From Actinomycetota bacterium (lineage in GTDB: Bacteria; Actinomycetota; Actinomycetes; Nanopelagicales; Nanopelagicaceae), in contig VGAG01000003.1 in assembly GCA_016870835.1 (NCBI GenBank), forward strand, positions 1 through 61,877: 61,877 nt of DNA, written 5' to 3'. A program made the position numbers and the translations under genes. Below the pieces are notes generated by a model. It had not been told where the DNA came from and ran no database searches. It worked only from the letters and a program-made list of their open reading frames with translations. Below, piece after piece: positions 53,421-60,083 of this stretch (position 1 is its first letter; every line of letters starts with the position of its first letter).

Positions 53421-56099
53421 GTGGTCGCGATTCTCGACAAGATTCTCCGTGCCGGTGAAGGCCGAGCTCTCAAGCAACTCGAGAAATTGGTGTCGCTCGT
53501 AAACGAAGAAGAAGCCCGTTTCTCGGCGATGACCGATCAAGAGCTTCGCGATATGACCACTCAATTTAAGAAGCGCTACGCCGATGGCGAATATCTTGAT
53601 GACTTACTTCCCGAAGCTTTTGCTGTAGTTAGAGAGGCCTCAAAGCGAACCTTAGGTCAACGTCACTACGACGTTCAGATAATGGGTGGCGCTGCCCTAC
53701 ATCGCGGAAATATTGCGGAGATGCGTACTGGTGAAGGAAAGACACTTGTTGCAACGCTTCCTTCATACCTAAATGCGCTAACTGGCTTAGGTGTTCATAT
53801 CGTTACCACAAATGATTACTTGGCTGAGCGCGACAGCGAGTGGATGGGCCGCATCCATAGATTCTTAGGTTTAAAAGTTGGCGTGATACTCGCATCAATG
53901 AGCTCGAGTGAACGTCGTGCACAATACGGAGCAGATATAACTTACGGAACAAATAATGAGTTTGGATTTGATTACTTACGCGACAACATGGCCTGGTCAC
54001 TTAGTGATTGCGTGCAACGCGGTCATAATTTTGCAATCGTCGATGAGGTTGACTCAATTCTCATCGATGAGGCCAGAACTCCGCTAATTATTAGCGGACC
54101 TGCTGATAAAGCAACTAAGTGGTATGTCGAATTCGCGAATGTTGCTGGGCGCTTGATCCGCGGCGAGCATTATGAAGTAGATGAGAAGAAACGAACTGTT
54201 GGGATTCTTGATGAGGGTGTAGCAAAGGTCGAAGAGTTTCTTAAGATTGAGAATCTCTATGAATCGGTTAATACACCGCTTATTGGCTACTTAAACAATG
54301 CCTTGAAGGCAAAAGAGTTGTTTAAGCGGGATAAAGATTATGTGATTATGAGCGGTGAGCTATTGATAGTTGATGAACACACCGGACGCGTGCTCTCAGG
54401 ACGTCGTTATAGCGAAGGTCTGCATCAAGCTCTAGAGGCAAAAGAGCGGGTTGAGATTCGTGATGAAAATCAGACTCTTGCAACCATCACCCTGCAGAAC
54501 TACTTCCGTTTGTACAACAAGTTATCTGGAATGACCGGTACTGCTATGACTGAAGCAGCAGAATTTATGCAGATCTATAAGTTAGGCGTTATTCCGATTC
54601 CTACGAATAAAGATATGCGTCGCATTGATCAATCTGACCTCATCTATAAAACAGAGAAGGCAAAGTTTGAAGAAGTCTCCAACGACATTGCCGAGCGTCA
54701 TAAGAAGGGCCAACCAGTCTTGGTCGGAACAGTTAGCGTTGAAAAGTCTGAAACTCTCTCCCAGGTATTAAAACGGCGCGGAATTCCGCATGAAGTTTTA
54801 AATGCAAAGCAGCATGAACGTGAGGCCGCAATCATTGCGCGCGCTGGAACGATTGGCGCCGTAACAGTTGCAACAAATATGGCGGGCCGCGGAACTGACA
54901 TCATGCTGGGTGGAAACCCTGAGTTCATGGCAGATTTTGAACTCCAACGGCAAGGTATTTCACCTGTCGAAAATGGTGAAGAGTATGAACGCCAATGGCC
55001 TGATGAGTTAGCGCGACAGAAATCTTCAGTCGCTCAAGAACATGAAAAAGTTGTAGCGCTTGGAGGGCTTTATGTTCTCGGTACCGAGCGCCATGAATCA
55101 AGGCGTATCGATAACCAGCTACGAGGTCGCTCAGGTCGTCAAGGTGATCCTGGTGAATCGCGCTTCTATCTCTCACTCCAAGATGAATTGATGCGTCGAT
55201 TCAATTCAACCTTAGTGGAGCGCTTCTTGACCGCAGCCGGTATCCCAGACGAAACACCGATTGAATCAAAGATGGTCACAAATGCAATTAAATCAGCTCA
55301 AACTCAAGTTGAATCACAGAACTTTGAGATGCGCAAAAACGTTCTTAAATACGACGACGTGATGAATCGCCAGCGCGAAGTTGTTTATGGTGAGCGGCGC
55401 GAGGTACTAGAGGGTGCAGATCTAAAAGAACAGATGAGTAAATTCATCGAAGACACAATCCGCGGATATGTAGCTGCTGCGACTGCCGAGGGCTATCCAG
55501 AAGAGTGGGATTTAGAGAAACTCTGGACGGTACTAAGAGCTATTTACCCAATTTCATTCTCCGTTTCTGATCTAGAGAATGAAGCTGGGGGAAGAACTGG
55601 TCTTGATCAAGACTTTCTTGCGCAACGGATTGTCGATGACATCTTTAAGGCTTACGGAGAACGAGAAGAGAAACTTGTAAGCGATGTCTTGCGCGAATTA
55701 GAGCGCAAAGTCTTGCTCTCCGTCCTTGATCGTAAGTGGCGTGAACATCTTTATGAGATGGATTATCTGCAAGAGGGAATTGGACTGAGAGCCATGGCCC
55801 AGCGCGACCCACTTGTTGAGTACCAAAAAGAGGGTTATGAACTCTTCTCCGCGATGATTGAAGCGATGAAAGAGGAAGTAGTTGGCTTCCTATTTAATGT
55901 CGAAGTAAAGGTCGAGGATTCAAAAGTTGAAGCCAAGGGCGTTGAAGAAAGTAAGCCCTCTGAAAATCTTAAATACAGCTCTCCTTCCGAGAGTGGAACC
56001 ACAAAACGTTCTTCATCTGGATCATCCATCTCTAGAAATGCACCTTGTCCTTGTGGTTCAGGAAAGAAATACAAGCGCTGCCACGGCGCCTCAGAGTAA
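53421..56099 (+). CDS. secA: Preprotein translocase ATPase SecA
   Basis: Motor of Sec export. The 892-aa protein has Walker [12 protein letters not shown] (Lys107), IVDEVDSIL, the [13 protein letters not shown] region, [18 protein letters not shown] (motif VI) and a C-terminal zinc motif [17 protein letters not shown]. The GTG start follows AGGAAGG by 7 nt. The last 9 bp overlap the convergent DUF6459-like gene. The hpf gene that often stands between comFC and secA is missing. Confidence 0.96.
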
Positions 56100-56561
56100 A
56101 TCAAACTCAGTACAAATCCAGCGGCGATCTACTCCCTCAAAACGTGCTGCAATCGCACGAACTCGTAAACCAATTGAGATAGTTGCAGTTAGCTCAATAA
56201 CGCCTTCAATTGGTTCGCTTCGATGTATGCGCCGTAATTTGGGAGCTGCCTTGGGAAATTTGCTATGCGTTCCAACTTGCTTTGCCAGGTTGTTGTAGAT
56301 AAATCTATGGGTATTTCGCGCGATCTGGGTTATGGGTCGTCTTCCGGCAAGAATCTCAACAACGCTTATTAGGTAGGCGCGTGTCCACTTGTTTGGATCA
56401 GGAAGTGAATCCAAAGATGAAGGCAACGGCGCAAACTCGGGATCAAATACCTCTCCATGTGTAGTCGGTACTAGATATAACTTGCCGTCGCGAGGGGGTA
56501 TGAATTCCTCTGGGCCTTGATAGAAGGGAAGTCCTTGCGCAGTTTCTCCAGTAGTTAACAT
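56091..56561 (-). CDS. DUF6459-like (Rv3235-type) protein
   Basis: A 156-aa protein. The C-terminal 95 residues, [19 protein letters not shown], then [20 protein letters not shown] and [20 protein letters not shown], fit an actinobacterial family near secA that I recall as DUF6459/Rv3235-like. The N-terminal 60 residues are Pro-rich and variable. Function is unknown. It overlaps the end of secA by 9 bp. I found no convincing ribosome-binding site before the ATG at 56561, so the start is less certain. Confidence 0.75.
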
Positions 56562-56667: not shown

Positions 56668-57327
56668 ATGGAAAGAGAAGAAAAGAAGAAGAAAGTCAAC
56701 GCTACGAAACGTTTTGATGAAATCCGGCTCTACCTAAATCCTAGATACCTCTTGGGATTGATCCTGATACTCGCCTCATTTAGCTCGGCCTACCTGATTA
56801 GTAAGTCTTCCGATCGAATGATCACAGTTTGGGGAGCAAACGTGGATCTTGCGCCCGGGGAAATGATTGAAGCTGATGATCTAAAAGTAATTCGAGTACG
56901 GCTCCCTGATAACGCGGCTCAATATCTTGACTCCAAGACCGACTTAATCGGAACCACAGTGTTAAGAGCGATTGGATCATCTGAACTGATCCCTAGTTTT
57001 GCGTTAACAAGTGAGATTGATCTTTCACTTGCAAGGGTCCCAATCTCAATTGCGCGTGAATGGGCTCCGATCGAATTAAGAAACGGGTCGTTAGTAGATA
57101 TCTACGGAATTCCAAATCGCGCCAATCAATTCAGCCAAGATTCAAACCCCTCTAGCCGCTTACTTATAAGCAATATCGCCATCGACAGCGTGGATGCCTC
57201 TAGTAGGGAGCTTGGCGGAAGAATTGGAATGACTGTACTTGTTCCGCAAGCGCGCGTTGAAGCAATAGTTTCGGCGATATCAAAATATGAATTTCTCTTG
57301 GTAAGTAAACCCAAGAATCGTTTCTAA
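56668..57327 (+). CDS. SAF-domain protein, CpaB/RcpC-like
   Basis: A 219-aa protein with a basic cytoplasmic start (EREEKKKKVNATKR), one membrane segment near 29-46 (LLGLILILASFSSAYLIS), and an SAF domain (VWGANVDLAPGEMIEADDLKVIRV, given in parts: NVDLAPGEMIEADDLKVI) as in the Flp/Tad pilus assembly protein CpaB. The C-terminal part (LLISNIAIDSVDA...GMTVLVPQARVEAIVSAI) matches the remaining RcpC/CpaB domain. It is followed by a CpaE-like gene after 6 bp, but no other pilus genes are in the window. Confidence 0.75.
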   Translation: MEREEKKKKVNATKRFDEIRLYLNPRYLLGLILILASFSSAYLISKSSDRMITVWGANVDLAPGEMIEADDLKVIRVRLPDNAAQYLDSKTDLIGTTVLRAIGSSELIPSFALTSEIDLSLARVPISIAREWAPIELRNGSLVDIYGIPNRANQFSQDSNPSSRLLISNIAIDSVDASSRELGGRIGMTVLVPQARVEAIVSAISKYEFLLVSKPKNRF

Positions 57328-57333
57328 TAGCTA

Positions 57334-58329
57334 ATGTCAATCTCAATAATCACTTACCTTCAGGATGCTGAGTTCGAAGATCAAGTCATTGAAGCGTTAA
57401 TTTCTAAGGGAATTAGTGAGGCGAAACTTGAGTACCGAGCAATAAGTGAACAGAGCCTTGTAAATTATCTCGATGCACTGGCAATTAGTGATGTGCGCCG
57501 AATTCTGATTCTTGATTGCGAGATTGAAACAGTCGCTTTAAAGAGAGCCCTACGAAAACATCCACACCTTGTAACCTGCGATTTCAAATCTGATATCACG
57601 GTCGCCTTAGATGAGATTGAAGCTCTAGTGAATCGATCGGTTCGTGAATCAGATAGTGAAGTGCCGCCGAGGCAGACTTTGAAGGCCCAGCAAAATCTAT
57701 TCGTGGTCACCGGAACTACGGGCGCTCCCGGGGTGACGACTTTAACTATGAATCTTGGCTTTGAGATCTCAAGGCTGAAACGGGTTGAGCTGGTTGACTC
57801 GCATCCACACCGAAGAGACTTGGCTTTTCTCTTAGGGGCCAAACGAAATAGCGAACAAGTTAGATTGTCTGATCAATTGTTAATTACCAATCAATTTCGT
57901 GAAGCTGAGCAAGTTATTCAACTTGTAGATGCCGGGCCTATCCCAGACCTTGCTAAGGCTTTCTCAGATAGGCGAGAGAGCATCAAGAACTATGTGAATC
58001 TTCTTGAATCGGCAGAGCGCATCTTCTTCCTTATGACTCCTGACAATAACCATATGTTTGAGTTAGAGATTATCTTGGCTTCACTTGATGCCGGTCGCCT
58101 TCGGGCTCGAGCAACATTTCTTCTTAATCAGATGGGCAACTCATCGAGGGAGCGCTCCATAAAGAAGAGATTTGAGTCGCGCGTTGGAAACTATTCATCT
58201 CATTGCCTTCCCTTTGATCGCGATTCACTCGATCGGGCTAAAGCAAGATATTGCGCCTTAATGGATGTAGCCCCGCGTTCGCGCCTGCGCCGTTCAATTG
58301 TGGAAGTGGCAAATGCCGTTGTTGAGTAA
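57334..58329 (+). CDS. CpaE/MinD-like protein with degenerate P-loop
   Basis: A 331-aa protein with a CheY-like/variable N-terminal region (1-100) and a P-loop region TGTTGAPGVTTLTMN at 126-140. Both lysines of the deviant Walker A are replaced (Thr129 and Val134), so classical ATP binding is doubtful; GxPGxTT variants occur in some actinobacterial CpaE-like proteins. VELVDSHPHRRDLAFLLG stands in for the switch region. It is cotranscribed with the CpaB-like gene and is followed after 9 bp by pdtaS. Function in pilus positioning is inferred from the pair only. Confidence 0.75.
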   Translation: MSISIITYLQDAEFEDQVIEALISKGISEAKLEYRAISEQSLVNYLDALAISDVRRILILDCEIETVALKRALRKHPHLVTCDFKSDITVALDEIEALVNRSVRESDSEVPPRQTLKAQQNLFVVTGTTGAPGVTTLTMNLGFEISRLKRVELVDSHPHRRDLAFLLGAKRNSEQVRLSDQLLITNQFREAEQVIQLVDAGPIPDLAKAFSDRRESIKNYVNLLESAERIFFLMTPDNNHMFELEIILASLDAGRLRARATFLLNQMGNSSRERSIKKRFESRVGNYSSHCLPFDRDSLDRAKARYCALMDVAPRSRLRRSIVEVANAVVE

Positions 58330-58332
58330 CCT
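58327..58332 (+). promoter_or_regulatory. putative -10 box of pdtaS (leaderless start)
   Basis: TAACCT overlaps the TAA stop of the CpaE-like gene and ends 6 nt before the ATG at 58339. It gives pdtaS an internal promoter. Confidence 0.5.
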
Positions 58333-58338
58333 CTGCTT

Positions 58339-59796
58339 ATGCCTTTTCGTAATCTTCCGGGAGCATCGTCGCTCTCAACCGAGGAGTTCAATCGCCTCTC
58401 GGACTTGATTGCTGAGTGGCAACTTCTAGCAGATCTCTCCTTTGCAGATTTAGTCCTATGGATTCCCAAAATTGATGGAACCGGCTTTATTTCAGTCTCC
58501 CAAATTAGGCCAATGACTGCGGCAACCGTCTTTGCAAATGACATGATTGGAACTGAGATTACTTTTGGTAATCATCCAAATATTGATGAGACTTTTAAAT
58601 CCGGAAACATAATTAGAGATACTGAAGCGAGCATGATTGGCGAGTTCACGGTAAAGGAAGAAACTATCCCGGTTCGACTAAACGGAAAATCTATTGCGGT
58701 TATCTCGCGACATCGAAATGTAGAGACGATGCGAACTCCTTCAAGGCTTGAACTCAACTATCGCGAGATTGCAAATCACATTTATCGGATGGTCGCCGAA
58801 GGAAACTTTCCAGTGCAAGGAAGTGTTTATCGATCTGAGACAGCCCCGCGTGCGGGCGATGGCTTAGTGAGATTAGATGTTGATGGTCGAATCACCTTCG
58901 CAAGCCCTAATGCGCGAAGTGCATTTGCTCGTATCGGTTGGATGAAAGATATGGACGGCCAGAATCTTGGTGAGATTCTAGATAACTTAGCTGTTCCAAT
59001 GAGGGGGCGAGAGCCGCGCGAGGAGAGTTGGCGCGTTGTCTTAAGTGGAAAATTCTTAAGGCGCGATGAGTTTGAGAATTCAGATGGAGTGTTAGACCTC
59101 TTGGCTATTCCGCTTACGGAATCGGAGATCCGTATTGGAGCAATTGTTCTAGTGCATAACGTAACCGAGCTACGGCGTCGCGATCGAGCGTTAGTTAGCA
59201 AAGATGCGACTATCCGAGAGATTCACCACCGAGTAAAGAACAATCTTCAATCGGTTTCTGCGCTACTTAGATTGCAATCTAGACGTATCGATGATGGGGT
59301 AGCACGCTCGGCAATAGAAGAGGCGATTCGGCGAATCGCATCAATCGCGCATGTACACGAGACGCTTTCGACCAGCTCGCAAGATAGCGTCCTATTTGAC
59401 GATGTCGTGGTTAAGTTGTTACAGAGCGCCCTTGAGCTAAGCCCGAGACCGAGTGAAATTGAGATAAATAAGAGCGGTGAGTTCGGCGCAATCCCATCAC
59501 TTATCGCAACTCCATTAGCGCTAATCCTTACTGAGTTGATTCAAAACTCATTAGAACATGGCCTAAATGAGCGCGGGAGCAAGTTAGAGGTTTCGGCGAT
59601 TCGAAGAGGTTCCCACTTTAAAATCTCAGTTAGTGATGATGGCGCGGGAATAAGCGCTGACTTTGATCTGCTAAATAGCTCAAGTCTGGGTCTTGAGATT
59701 GTTCGAACTCTTACCGAAAATGAACTGTCAGGTGAGTTAAGGTTTGAGCGATTAGGTCAAGGTACGAAAGCAGAGATTGAATTTAATTTAAATTAA
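58339..59796 (+). CDS. pdtaS: PdtaS-like sensor histidine kinase
   Basis: Cytosolic two-component sensor; the mycobacterial homologue signals through the RNA-binding antiterminator PdtaR. The 485-aa protein has an N-terminal GAF-like domain (about 15-150), a PAS domain (about 175-285, VRLDVDGRITFASPNA), a HisKA_2 region IREIHHRVKNNLQSVSALLR with His296/His297, and an HATPase_c domain (ALILTELIQNSLEHG; DDGAGI; GLEIV). Adjacent convergent whiB1 matches Rv3220c-Rv3219 (from memory). PdtaR is not in the window. Confidence 0.92.
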   Translation: MPFRNLPGASSLSTEEFNRLSDLIAEWQLLADLSFADLVLWIPKIDGTGFISVSQIRPMTAATVFANDMIGTEITFGNHPNIDETFKSGNIIRDTEASMIGEFTVKEETIPVRLNGKSIAVISRHRNVETMRTPSRLELNYREIANHIYRMVAEGNFPVQGSVYRSETAPRAGDGLVRLDVDGRITFASPNARSAFARIGWMKDMDGQNLGEILDNLAVPMRGREPREESWRVVLSGKFLRRDEFENSDGVLDLLAIPLTESEIRIGAIVLVHNVTELRRRDRALVSKDATIREIHHRVKNNLQSVSALLRLQSRRIDDGVARSAIEEAIRRIASIAHVHETLSTSSQDSVLFDDVVVKLLQSALELSPRPSEIEINKSGEFGAIPSLIATPLALILTELIQNSLEHGLNERGSKLEVSAIRRGSHFKISVSDDGAGISADFDLLNSSSLGLEIVRTLTENELSGELRFERLGQGTKAEIEFNLN

Positions 59797-60083
59797 GAAT
59801 TCTGATTTTGAGTCTCAAGCATGCGCGCTCTATGTCGAGCTGCTCTGCGCTTCATGGCGCGGCGTTCATCTTCAGATAGGCCACCCCAAACTCCGGAATC
59901 TTGGCCGCTCTCAAGGGCCCATTGCAAGCAGGCCTCGCGGACATCGCACTTCATACAAACTTTCTTTGCCTCTTCGATCTGTGCAATTGCAGGACCAGTA
60001 TTTCCAACTGGAAAGAAGAGTTCTGGATCAACATGGCGACATGCTGCGCGGTGGCGCCAATCCATGTTCATATCCGTAGCCAC
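59793..60083 (-). CDS. whiB1: WhiB-family transcriptional regulator WhiB1
   Basis: NO-sensitive [4Fe-4S] regulator, essential in mycobacteria. The 96-aa protein has Cys15, Cys43, Cys46 and Cys52, the motif FFPVGNTGPA, GQDSGVWGG near 60-68 and the basic tail RRAMKRRAARHRAR. The GTG at 60083 is chosen because GAGGAG lies about 8 nt upstream; ATG at 60065 would give the exact classical WhiB1 start. The stop codon shares TTAA with pdtaS. Confidence 0.93.
   Translation of the reverse strand: MATDMNMDWRHRAACRHVDPELFFPVGNTGPAIAQIEEAKKVCMKCDVREACLQWALESGQDSGVWGGLSEDERRAMKRRAARHRARMLETQNQNS

Follow-up and report, generated by a model that had tools for sequence, protein, structure and literature searches.

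The window analysed here, 61,877 nucleotides (nt) long, is one contig (VGAG01000003.1) of a genome of the actinobacterial family Nanopelagicaceae (1.01 Mb, 49 contigs, 76% complete). It carries a gene for a SAF-domain protein resembling CpaB/RcpC and a gene for a MinD-like protein resembling CpaE/TadZ, which lie directly before pdtaS, the gene of a sensor histidine kinase. We consider it likely that this SAF-CpaE pair supplies the CpaB/RcpC-like subunit and the CpaE/TadZ-like subunit for a split Tad (Flp) pilus, serving most probably for DNA uptake. This reading, and with it a function like that of CpaB and CpaE, is supported by the gene order, the domain folds, the class-wide co-occurrence of the pair with a Tad cluster located elsewhere, the lack of recognisable cpaB and cpaE in that cluster and the ancestral lack of the P-loop lysines.

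Co-occurrence of the pair with a separate Tad cluster

The presence of the pair tracks tadA, not PdtaS. Among 148 genomes of the class, 76 hold both pair and tadA, 17 the pair only, 6 tadA only and 49 neither (Fisher p 8e-18), while PdtaS shows no association with the pair (present/absent 85/8 in genomes with the pair vs 53/2 in those without it, Fisher p 0.32); both p values ignore shared ancestry, a first point that weighs against our reading. The 128 genomes that are at least 90% complete give 69 with both, 10 with the pair only, 4 with tadA only and 45 with neither, and a count by family (39) gives 31, 1, 0 and 7, respectively. The TadA profile used here separates prfB-type TadA (at least 385 bits) from full-length CpaF paralogues (at most 322 bits). 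The pair was scored with class profile A5; an earlier profile, A1, missed diverged members of the class, and the replacement moved 4 of the 10 genomes with 'tadA without pair' to 'both'. Five partial tadA matches (G087, G128, G059, G086 and G170) were counted as present, as judged from coverage and bits.

In genus- and family-mates, the Tad genes form a cluster tadA-tadB-tadC-small pilin-like gene-tadE-tadE-tadG directly before prfB-ftsE-ftsX. Loci were scanned by six-frame profile searches, and the SAF and CpaE profiles of the pair found no match in the prfB-linked Tad loci of the family (L096, L097, L099, L101, L103 and L104) or in 18 prfB loci of the class (L147-L164). The same tadA is present in 15 of these 18; L151, L154 and L155 are without tadA-tadB-tadC beside prfB. 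Full tadA was found in 14 of the 24 genomes of the genus (our own counted among the 24), including the nearest relative, G009. The two loci can also lie close together: in all 10 f18 genomes, tadA follows cpaE on the same strand at a distance of 7.2-8.5 kb, which shrinks to 3.4 kb in G122. An earlier reading of the window from its sequence only had proposed that the pair might be uncoupled from the Tad pilus and that Tad genes should be looked for elsewhere. They were indeed found, beside prfB in relatives, and uncoupling is not supported as a general case given a cluster without recognisable cpaB or cpaE and its co-occurrence with the pair across the class.

The assembled genome to which the window belongs gave no T2SSE match, and prfB, the flank of the Tad cluster in relatives, was not found in it either. 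Since prfB is equally missing from this incomplete assembly, absence of Tad from the genome is not shown, and we dropped it as evidence.

Three further observations concern the Tad loci themselves. The protein encoded between tadC and tadE (L096:9302-9799, L099:8787-9134, L101:8516-8944, L103:9851-10321, L104:4129-4707, L144:4210-4572) is strongly conserved in its last 45 residues (RGDVPGWVLVVLMTTGLVT...NSLDAMNGIR), a pattern present in 17 of the 47 tad loci scanned; two such proteins of the family matched no Pfam family above cut-off, and judging from the sequence it could be an atypical pilin. A small GGDEF-like protein is encoded before tadA in several family genomes (L099:5766-6248, L101:5123-5608, L098:7330-7806, L144:7670-8212; PF00990 7.9e-7 for L101), hinting at second-messenger control of the prfB-linked cluster. 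Finally, a second type of Tad cluster, which has an Ssd/CpaE-like gene of its own immediately before a CpaF gene, occurs in a few family genomes (L102 in G012:C59, L115 in G032).

The locus in the window and its conservation

The features of the locus are as follows:

53421..56099, + strand: secA, open reading frame (ORF), upstream landmark of the conserved locus
56091..56561, - strand: DUF6459 gene between secA and the SAF-CpaE pair (PF20060, E 7.8e-26)
56668..57327, + strand: SAF-domain CpaB/RcpC-like gene, 219 aa (PF08666; TIGR03177 below cut-off; predicted fold)
57334..58329, + strand: CpaE/TadZ-like (MinD-like) gene, 331 aa (predicted fold; P-loop TGTTGAPGVTTL)
57709..57744, + strand: P-loop region of the CpaE-like protein, residues 126-137, where T129 and V134 replace the lysines
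58339..59796, + strand: pdtaS, sensor histidine kinase, 485 aa, third gene (PF12282 9.7e-40, HisKA_2 5.8e-22, HATPase_c 2.3e-10)
59793..60083, - strand: WhiB-family regulator gene, downstream neighbour of pdtaS (PF02467 1.3e-27)

The SAF, CpaE-like and pdtaS genes share the + strand and are separated by only 6 and 9 nt; they therefore probably form one operon. A promoter scan found promoter-like sites, which were not in excess of those in shuffled sequence. PdtaS is intact, with its GAF_PdtaS, HisKA_2 and HATPase domains all detected by profile search. The sequence-only reading had placed the three ORFs exactly and had rightly noted no other pilus genes here: tadA/B/C/E/G gave no profile match within the window. 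A search of viral contigs for the CpaE-like protein returned no confirmed match.

The order SAF-CpaE-pdtaS is kept in 28 of 29 family loci (the window counted), the exception being G005, which holds only a CpaE fragment; because the order recurs in this way, the arrangement is well beyond chance. In a second sample of the family, pdtaS lies within 1.5 kb, on the same contig and strand, for 60 of 64 CpaE matches. Outside the family, 82 genomes have a CpaE homologue: 3 of them carry pdtaS adjacent to it and a further 12 less than 20 kb away, 59 have pdtaS at some other place or on a different contig, and 8 gave no pdtaS match. The PdtaS link is real in the window's family but not general; in Micrococcus luteus the corresponding position is taken by a PAS kinase. 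It had been suggested from the sequence that the pair is tied to PdtaS, and that pairs unlinked to pdtaS in relatives would speak against this; the linkage holds within the family, but most pairs outside it are unlinked.

The SAF gene accompanies the CpaE gene in 78 of 80 named loci, which are mostly from Nocardioidaceae and of which several are short, and in 19 of 20 class loci. In the same two sets, a divergent HTH_17 gene stands at the pair in 77 and 18 loci, DUF6459 lies near it in 34 and 17, and secA in 30 and 16. A search of the window and of family loci gave no HTH_17 match. Two other arrangements were noted. In one genus (L106, L245 and L246, from G194, G221 and G204) secA abuts pdtaS, and the DUF6459, SAF and CpaE genes are gone. 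In G021, a further and distinct secA-DUF6459-SAF-CpaE-pdtaS locus (L114, G021:C39) probably stems from contamination of the assembly by a foreign contig.

A protein with a predicted membrane anchor and RcpC-like fold

The first protein of the pair contains a SAF (beta-clip) domain (PF08666, E 2.3e-5, above cut-off). Its predicted model (predicted local distance difference test, pLDDT, 85) has one N-terminal membrane helix at about residues 25-48, with a hydrophobic stretch at 27, and beta-rich modules predicted to lie beyond the membrane. Foldseek's top match among solved structures is chain 9gzr_B (E 2.2e-8), RcpC from the alignment complex of the Tad pilus, and VIA aligned the second SAF module with 9gzr_A (Z 10.9 over 95 residues). 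The whole-chain template modelling (TM) score is low (0.38-0.40), so that the orientation of the domains in the model is uncertain. For the first SAF module VIA did not list RcpC, an absence that we do not count as contrary evidence, and the SAF profile found no match among the sequences of solved structures. The model thus predicts an RcpC-like fold with an N-terminal membrane anchor. In these features, and in its best structural match, the protein resembles RcpC/CpaB of Tad pili; it differs in that its gene lies outside the tad cluster and in that it stays below the cut-off of the CpaB family TIGR03177.

A CpaE/TadZ-like protein with an ancestrally altered P-loop

By sequence, the 331-aa protein matches MinD/CbiA profiles weakly. 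Its predicted model (pLDDT 90) comprises an N-terminal alpha/beta, possibly receiver-like domain (about residues 1-108), seen within the model of the whole protein with alternating beta and alpha elements at residues 3-108, and a MinD-like domain (about 119-331). Among the top Foldseek matches are FlhG, BcsQ, Soj, FleN and MinD, together with the two-domain structure 3fkq, which we take to be TadZ (412 aligned columns, TM 0.37). VIA matched MinD/ParA chains at Z of about 20-21; it did not list 3fkq, which again we do not count as contrary. The SAF domain with its RcpC-like fold and this MinD/ParA-like predicted fold bear out the original identification of the two genes as CpaB-like and CpaE-like.

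The deviant Walker A motif of MinD/ParA proteins is marked by two P-loop lysines, and there are TadZ proteins whose Walker boxes are unusual. In the window's protein the two lysine positions are occupied by T129 and V134, as the translation confirms, so that both lysines of the deviant Walker A motif are lacking. We surveyed the P-loop in 51 unique sequences of the family (66 of 67 loci scanned) and 111 unique sequences of other families (120 of 120 loci), 80 of the latter loci having been fetched with patterns that spell part of the P-loop motif, but not its Arg. At the Walker position, the family has R in 18 sequences, I in 14, T in 6, C in 6, V in 4 and A, K and N in one each; the other families have Arg in 111 of 111. 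The signature lysine occurs in none of the 162 sequences and the Walker lysine in one. Because Arg occupies the Walker position in all sequences of other families and the signature lysine is absent throughout, the surveyed sequences indicate that the lysine loss is ancestral, with extra drift in the window's family. The P-loop had first been described as degenerate: the lysines are indeed missing, but the term misleads, since they are lost family-wide and Arg is fixed in other families. In G032 (L105:4123-4887) and G031 (L108:4674-5573), the ORF that separates the SAF gene from pdtaS retains an N-terminal half and shows no P-loop motif; from their sequences, these proteins may have lost nucleotide binding altogether.

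With CpaE/TadZ and the actinobacterial Ssd proteins the CpaE-like protein shares an N-terminal alpha/beta domain followed by a MinD-like domain, and a class relative matches the Ssd profile TIGR03815, for which the search returned no row for the window's own protein. This CpaE branch differs in lying far under the Ssd cut-off and in the replacement of the Walker lysine in 161 of the 162 unique sequences.

Comparison with Micrococcus luteus

What follows on M. luteus is drawn from sections of two reports. The operon Mlut_14650/40/30 encodes an RcpC/CpaB-like SAF protein, a TadZ/CpaE-like protein and a PAS histidine kinase, with a divergent HTH_17 gene, Mlut_14660 (PMC8467076). Deletion of the SAF gene lowers transformability about 10^4-fold and a G27D point mutant loses transformation by more than 10^5-fold; the deletion also raises comEA/EC promoter activity in LB, a rich medium (PMC8467076). 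The two operons are alike in their three gene types, in the same order and in one operon, in having tad genes at other loci, and in consisting of genes that several actinobacterial genera conserve (PMC8467076). They differ in that the window locus lacks an HTH_17 match, has Val as Walker residue, encodes a clear PdtaS as kinase and is known from its genes alone. By analogy with the transformation defect of the M. luteus counterpart (PMC8467076), the SAF gene would have a role in Tad assembly or transformation here.

Two tad clusters are required for Flp complexes and transformation in M. luteus, which is stated to have no TadZ orthologue (PMC4322843). Its tad-1 cluster resembles the prfB-linked cluster in the order tadA-tadB-tadC-tadE/F-tadG and in lacking a classical flp and tadZ; unlike the family, most genomes of which show a single T2SSE match, M. 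luteus also needs tad-2, with flp (PMC4322843). The tad/flp and com genes have been reported in two freshwater actinobacteria, in the part of that report considered here (PMC8591293), and comEC is present in 20 of the 24 genomes that we examined, our own included, being missing in G005, G191, G194 and G031. Our literature search for PdtaS together with pilus or competence found nothing tying PdtaS to pili.

Evidence against the pilus reading and alternatives

Several results besides the shared ancestry mentioned above weigh against the pair being part of a Tad pilus. Of the 79 pair-bearing genomes that are at least 90% complete, 10 are without this tadA, and G221 holds tadA without the pair. 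The SAF protein reaches only 31.5 bits with TIGR03177 (E 1e-7; cut-off 71) and a class relative 47.1 bits, while class relatives of the CpaE-like protein reach 29.3 and 43.0 bits with TIGR03815 (E 3e-11 for one of them; cut-off 154.45); by these sequence scores, since both fail the cut-offs, the two proteins form a branch beside the curated families. The match between the window and M. luteus rests on gene order and on the annotation in PMC8467076, whose authors, in the sections considered, call a direct part in pilus formation unverified.

A further objection comes from genomes that have lost the cluster. The prfB locus could be read in G127, G169, G179, G191, G193 and G194; it is without tadA/B/C in all six, none of which has a T2SSE match, and in G191 it retains a weak TadG-like match of 59 aa. 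All but G194 keep an intact pair. In closed G194, the pair, DUF6459, tadA and comEC are all gone, a joint loss that speaks for the pilus reading, and G204 likewise lacks both pair and tadA. The ratio of nonsynonymous to synonymous substitution rates (dN/dS) of CpaE between Tad-less and near Tad-bearing genomes is 0.23 (G169/G080), 0.20 (G127/G098), 0.09 (G191/G201) and 0.03 (G193/G220; dS saturated), within the range found between Tad-bearing genomes of the same genera (0.16-0.30 in g38, 0.06-0.08 in g11), and gives no clear sign of CpaE decay. A simple pilus reading leaves a single result unexplained, the retention of the pair where Tad has been lost.

In one alternative, SAF and CpaE act as a membrane sensor feeding PdtaS (for com or other genes) independently of a pilus, the Tad association arising from shared regulation or ancestry. 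We regard this as rather unlikely. It would fit the five Tad-less genomes, four of which have comEC, their low dN/dS, the proximity of pdtaS in the family and the comEA/EC promoter effect of the M. luteus deletion, but PdtaS is seldom adjacent outside the family and persists in 53 of the 55 genomes without the pair, which tracks tadA instead, and the SAF fold matches RcpC. The sequence-only suggestion of a new signalling unit therefore stays alive through the M. luteus PAS kinase and com effect (PMC8467076, as far as its sections go) and the Tad-less genomes, and is weakened by the rarity of the PdtaS linkage outside the family.

It appears improbable that the pair in the window is left over from a lost pilus and owes its continued transcription to its place in the pdtaS operon. 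The Tad cluster has been lost several times in the family, G005 keeps only a CpaE fragment, secA abuts pdtaS in G194, G204 and G221, and the family's P-loop has drifted, with none visible in G031 and G032; against this, the ORFs of the pair are intact and under purifying selection, full tadA is found in more than half of the genus, the nearest relative included, and the lack of prfB leaves Tad absence here unshown. A general MinD/ParA-type role in partition or septum-site placement, without relation to pili, can be nearly dismissed: it would suit the similarity to FlhG, FleN, Soj and MinD in both fold and profile searches, but the constant pairing with a CpaB-type SAF protein and the co-occurrence with tadA speak against it.

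Proposed mechanism and significance

In the split Tad pilus that we favour, the motor, platform and pseudopilin genes (tadA-tadB-tadC-tadE-tadE-tadG) would reside in the separate cluster that adjoins prfB-ftsE-ftsX in relatives. The SAF protein, held by its one N-terminal helix, would line or align the exit path in the cell wall, and the CpaE protein, under the membrane, would place or gate the TadA-TadBC base, acting not as a normal ATPase but as a MinD relative whose part is nucleotide-sensing or purely structural. PdtaS, probably on the same transcript in the window's family, may tie machine assembly to a regulatory output. Physical contact of CpaE with TadA, like any link between PdtaS and the pilus, is something that we infer. 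A more speculative extension, to which we give only a modest chance, is that SAF, CpaE and PdtaS form a pilus checkpoint, in which SAF and CpaE report Tad assembly (or bound DNA or surface) to PdtaS, which would set competence gene expression; the Arg P-loop would bind nucleotide without turnover, and the sensor half would outlive the pilus in several streamlined lineages through a regulatory duty of its own.

The probable split Tad machine for DNA uptake has been studied genetically in one relative, M. luteus, and its spread across the class is shown here by co-occurrence. This co-occurrence suggests that the secA-linked pair supplies the missing Tad parts, and the split machine becomes directly testable. 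Our analysis also singles out the arginine P-loop, which is fixed in this CpaE branch, and adds an actinobacterium with a small genome and a retained comEC to those with a probable DNA-uptake pilus whose operon includes a kinase.

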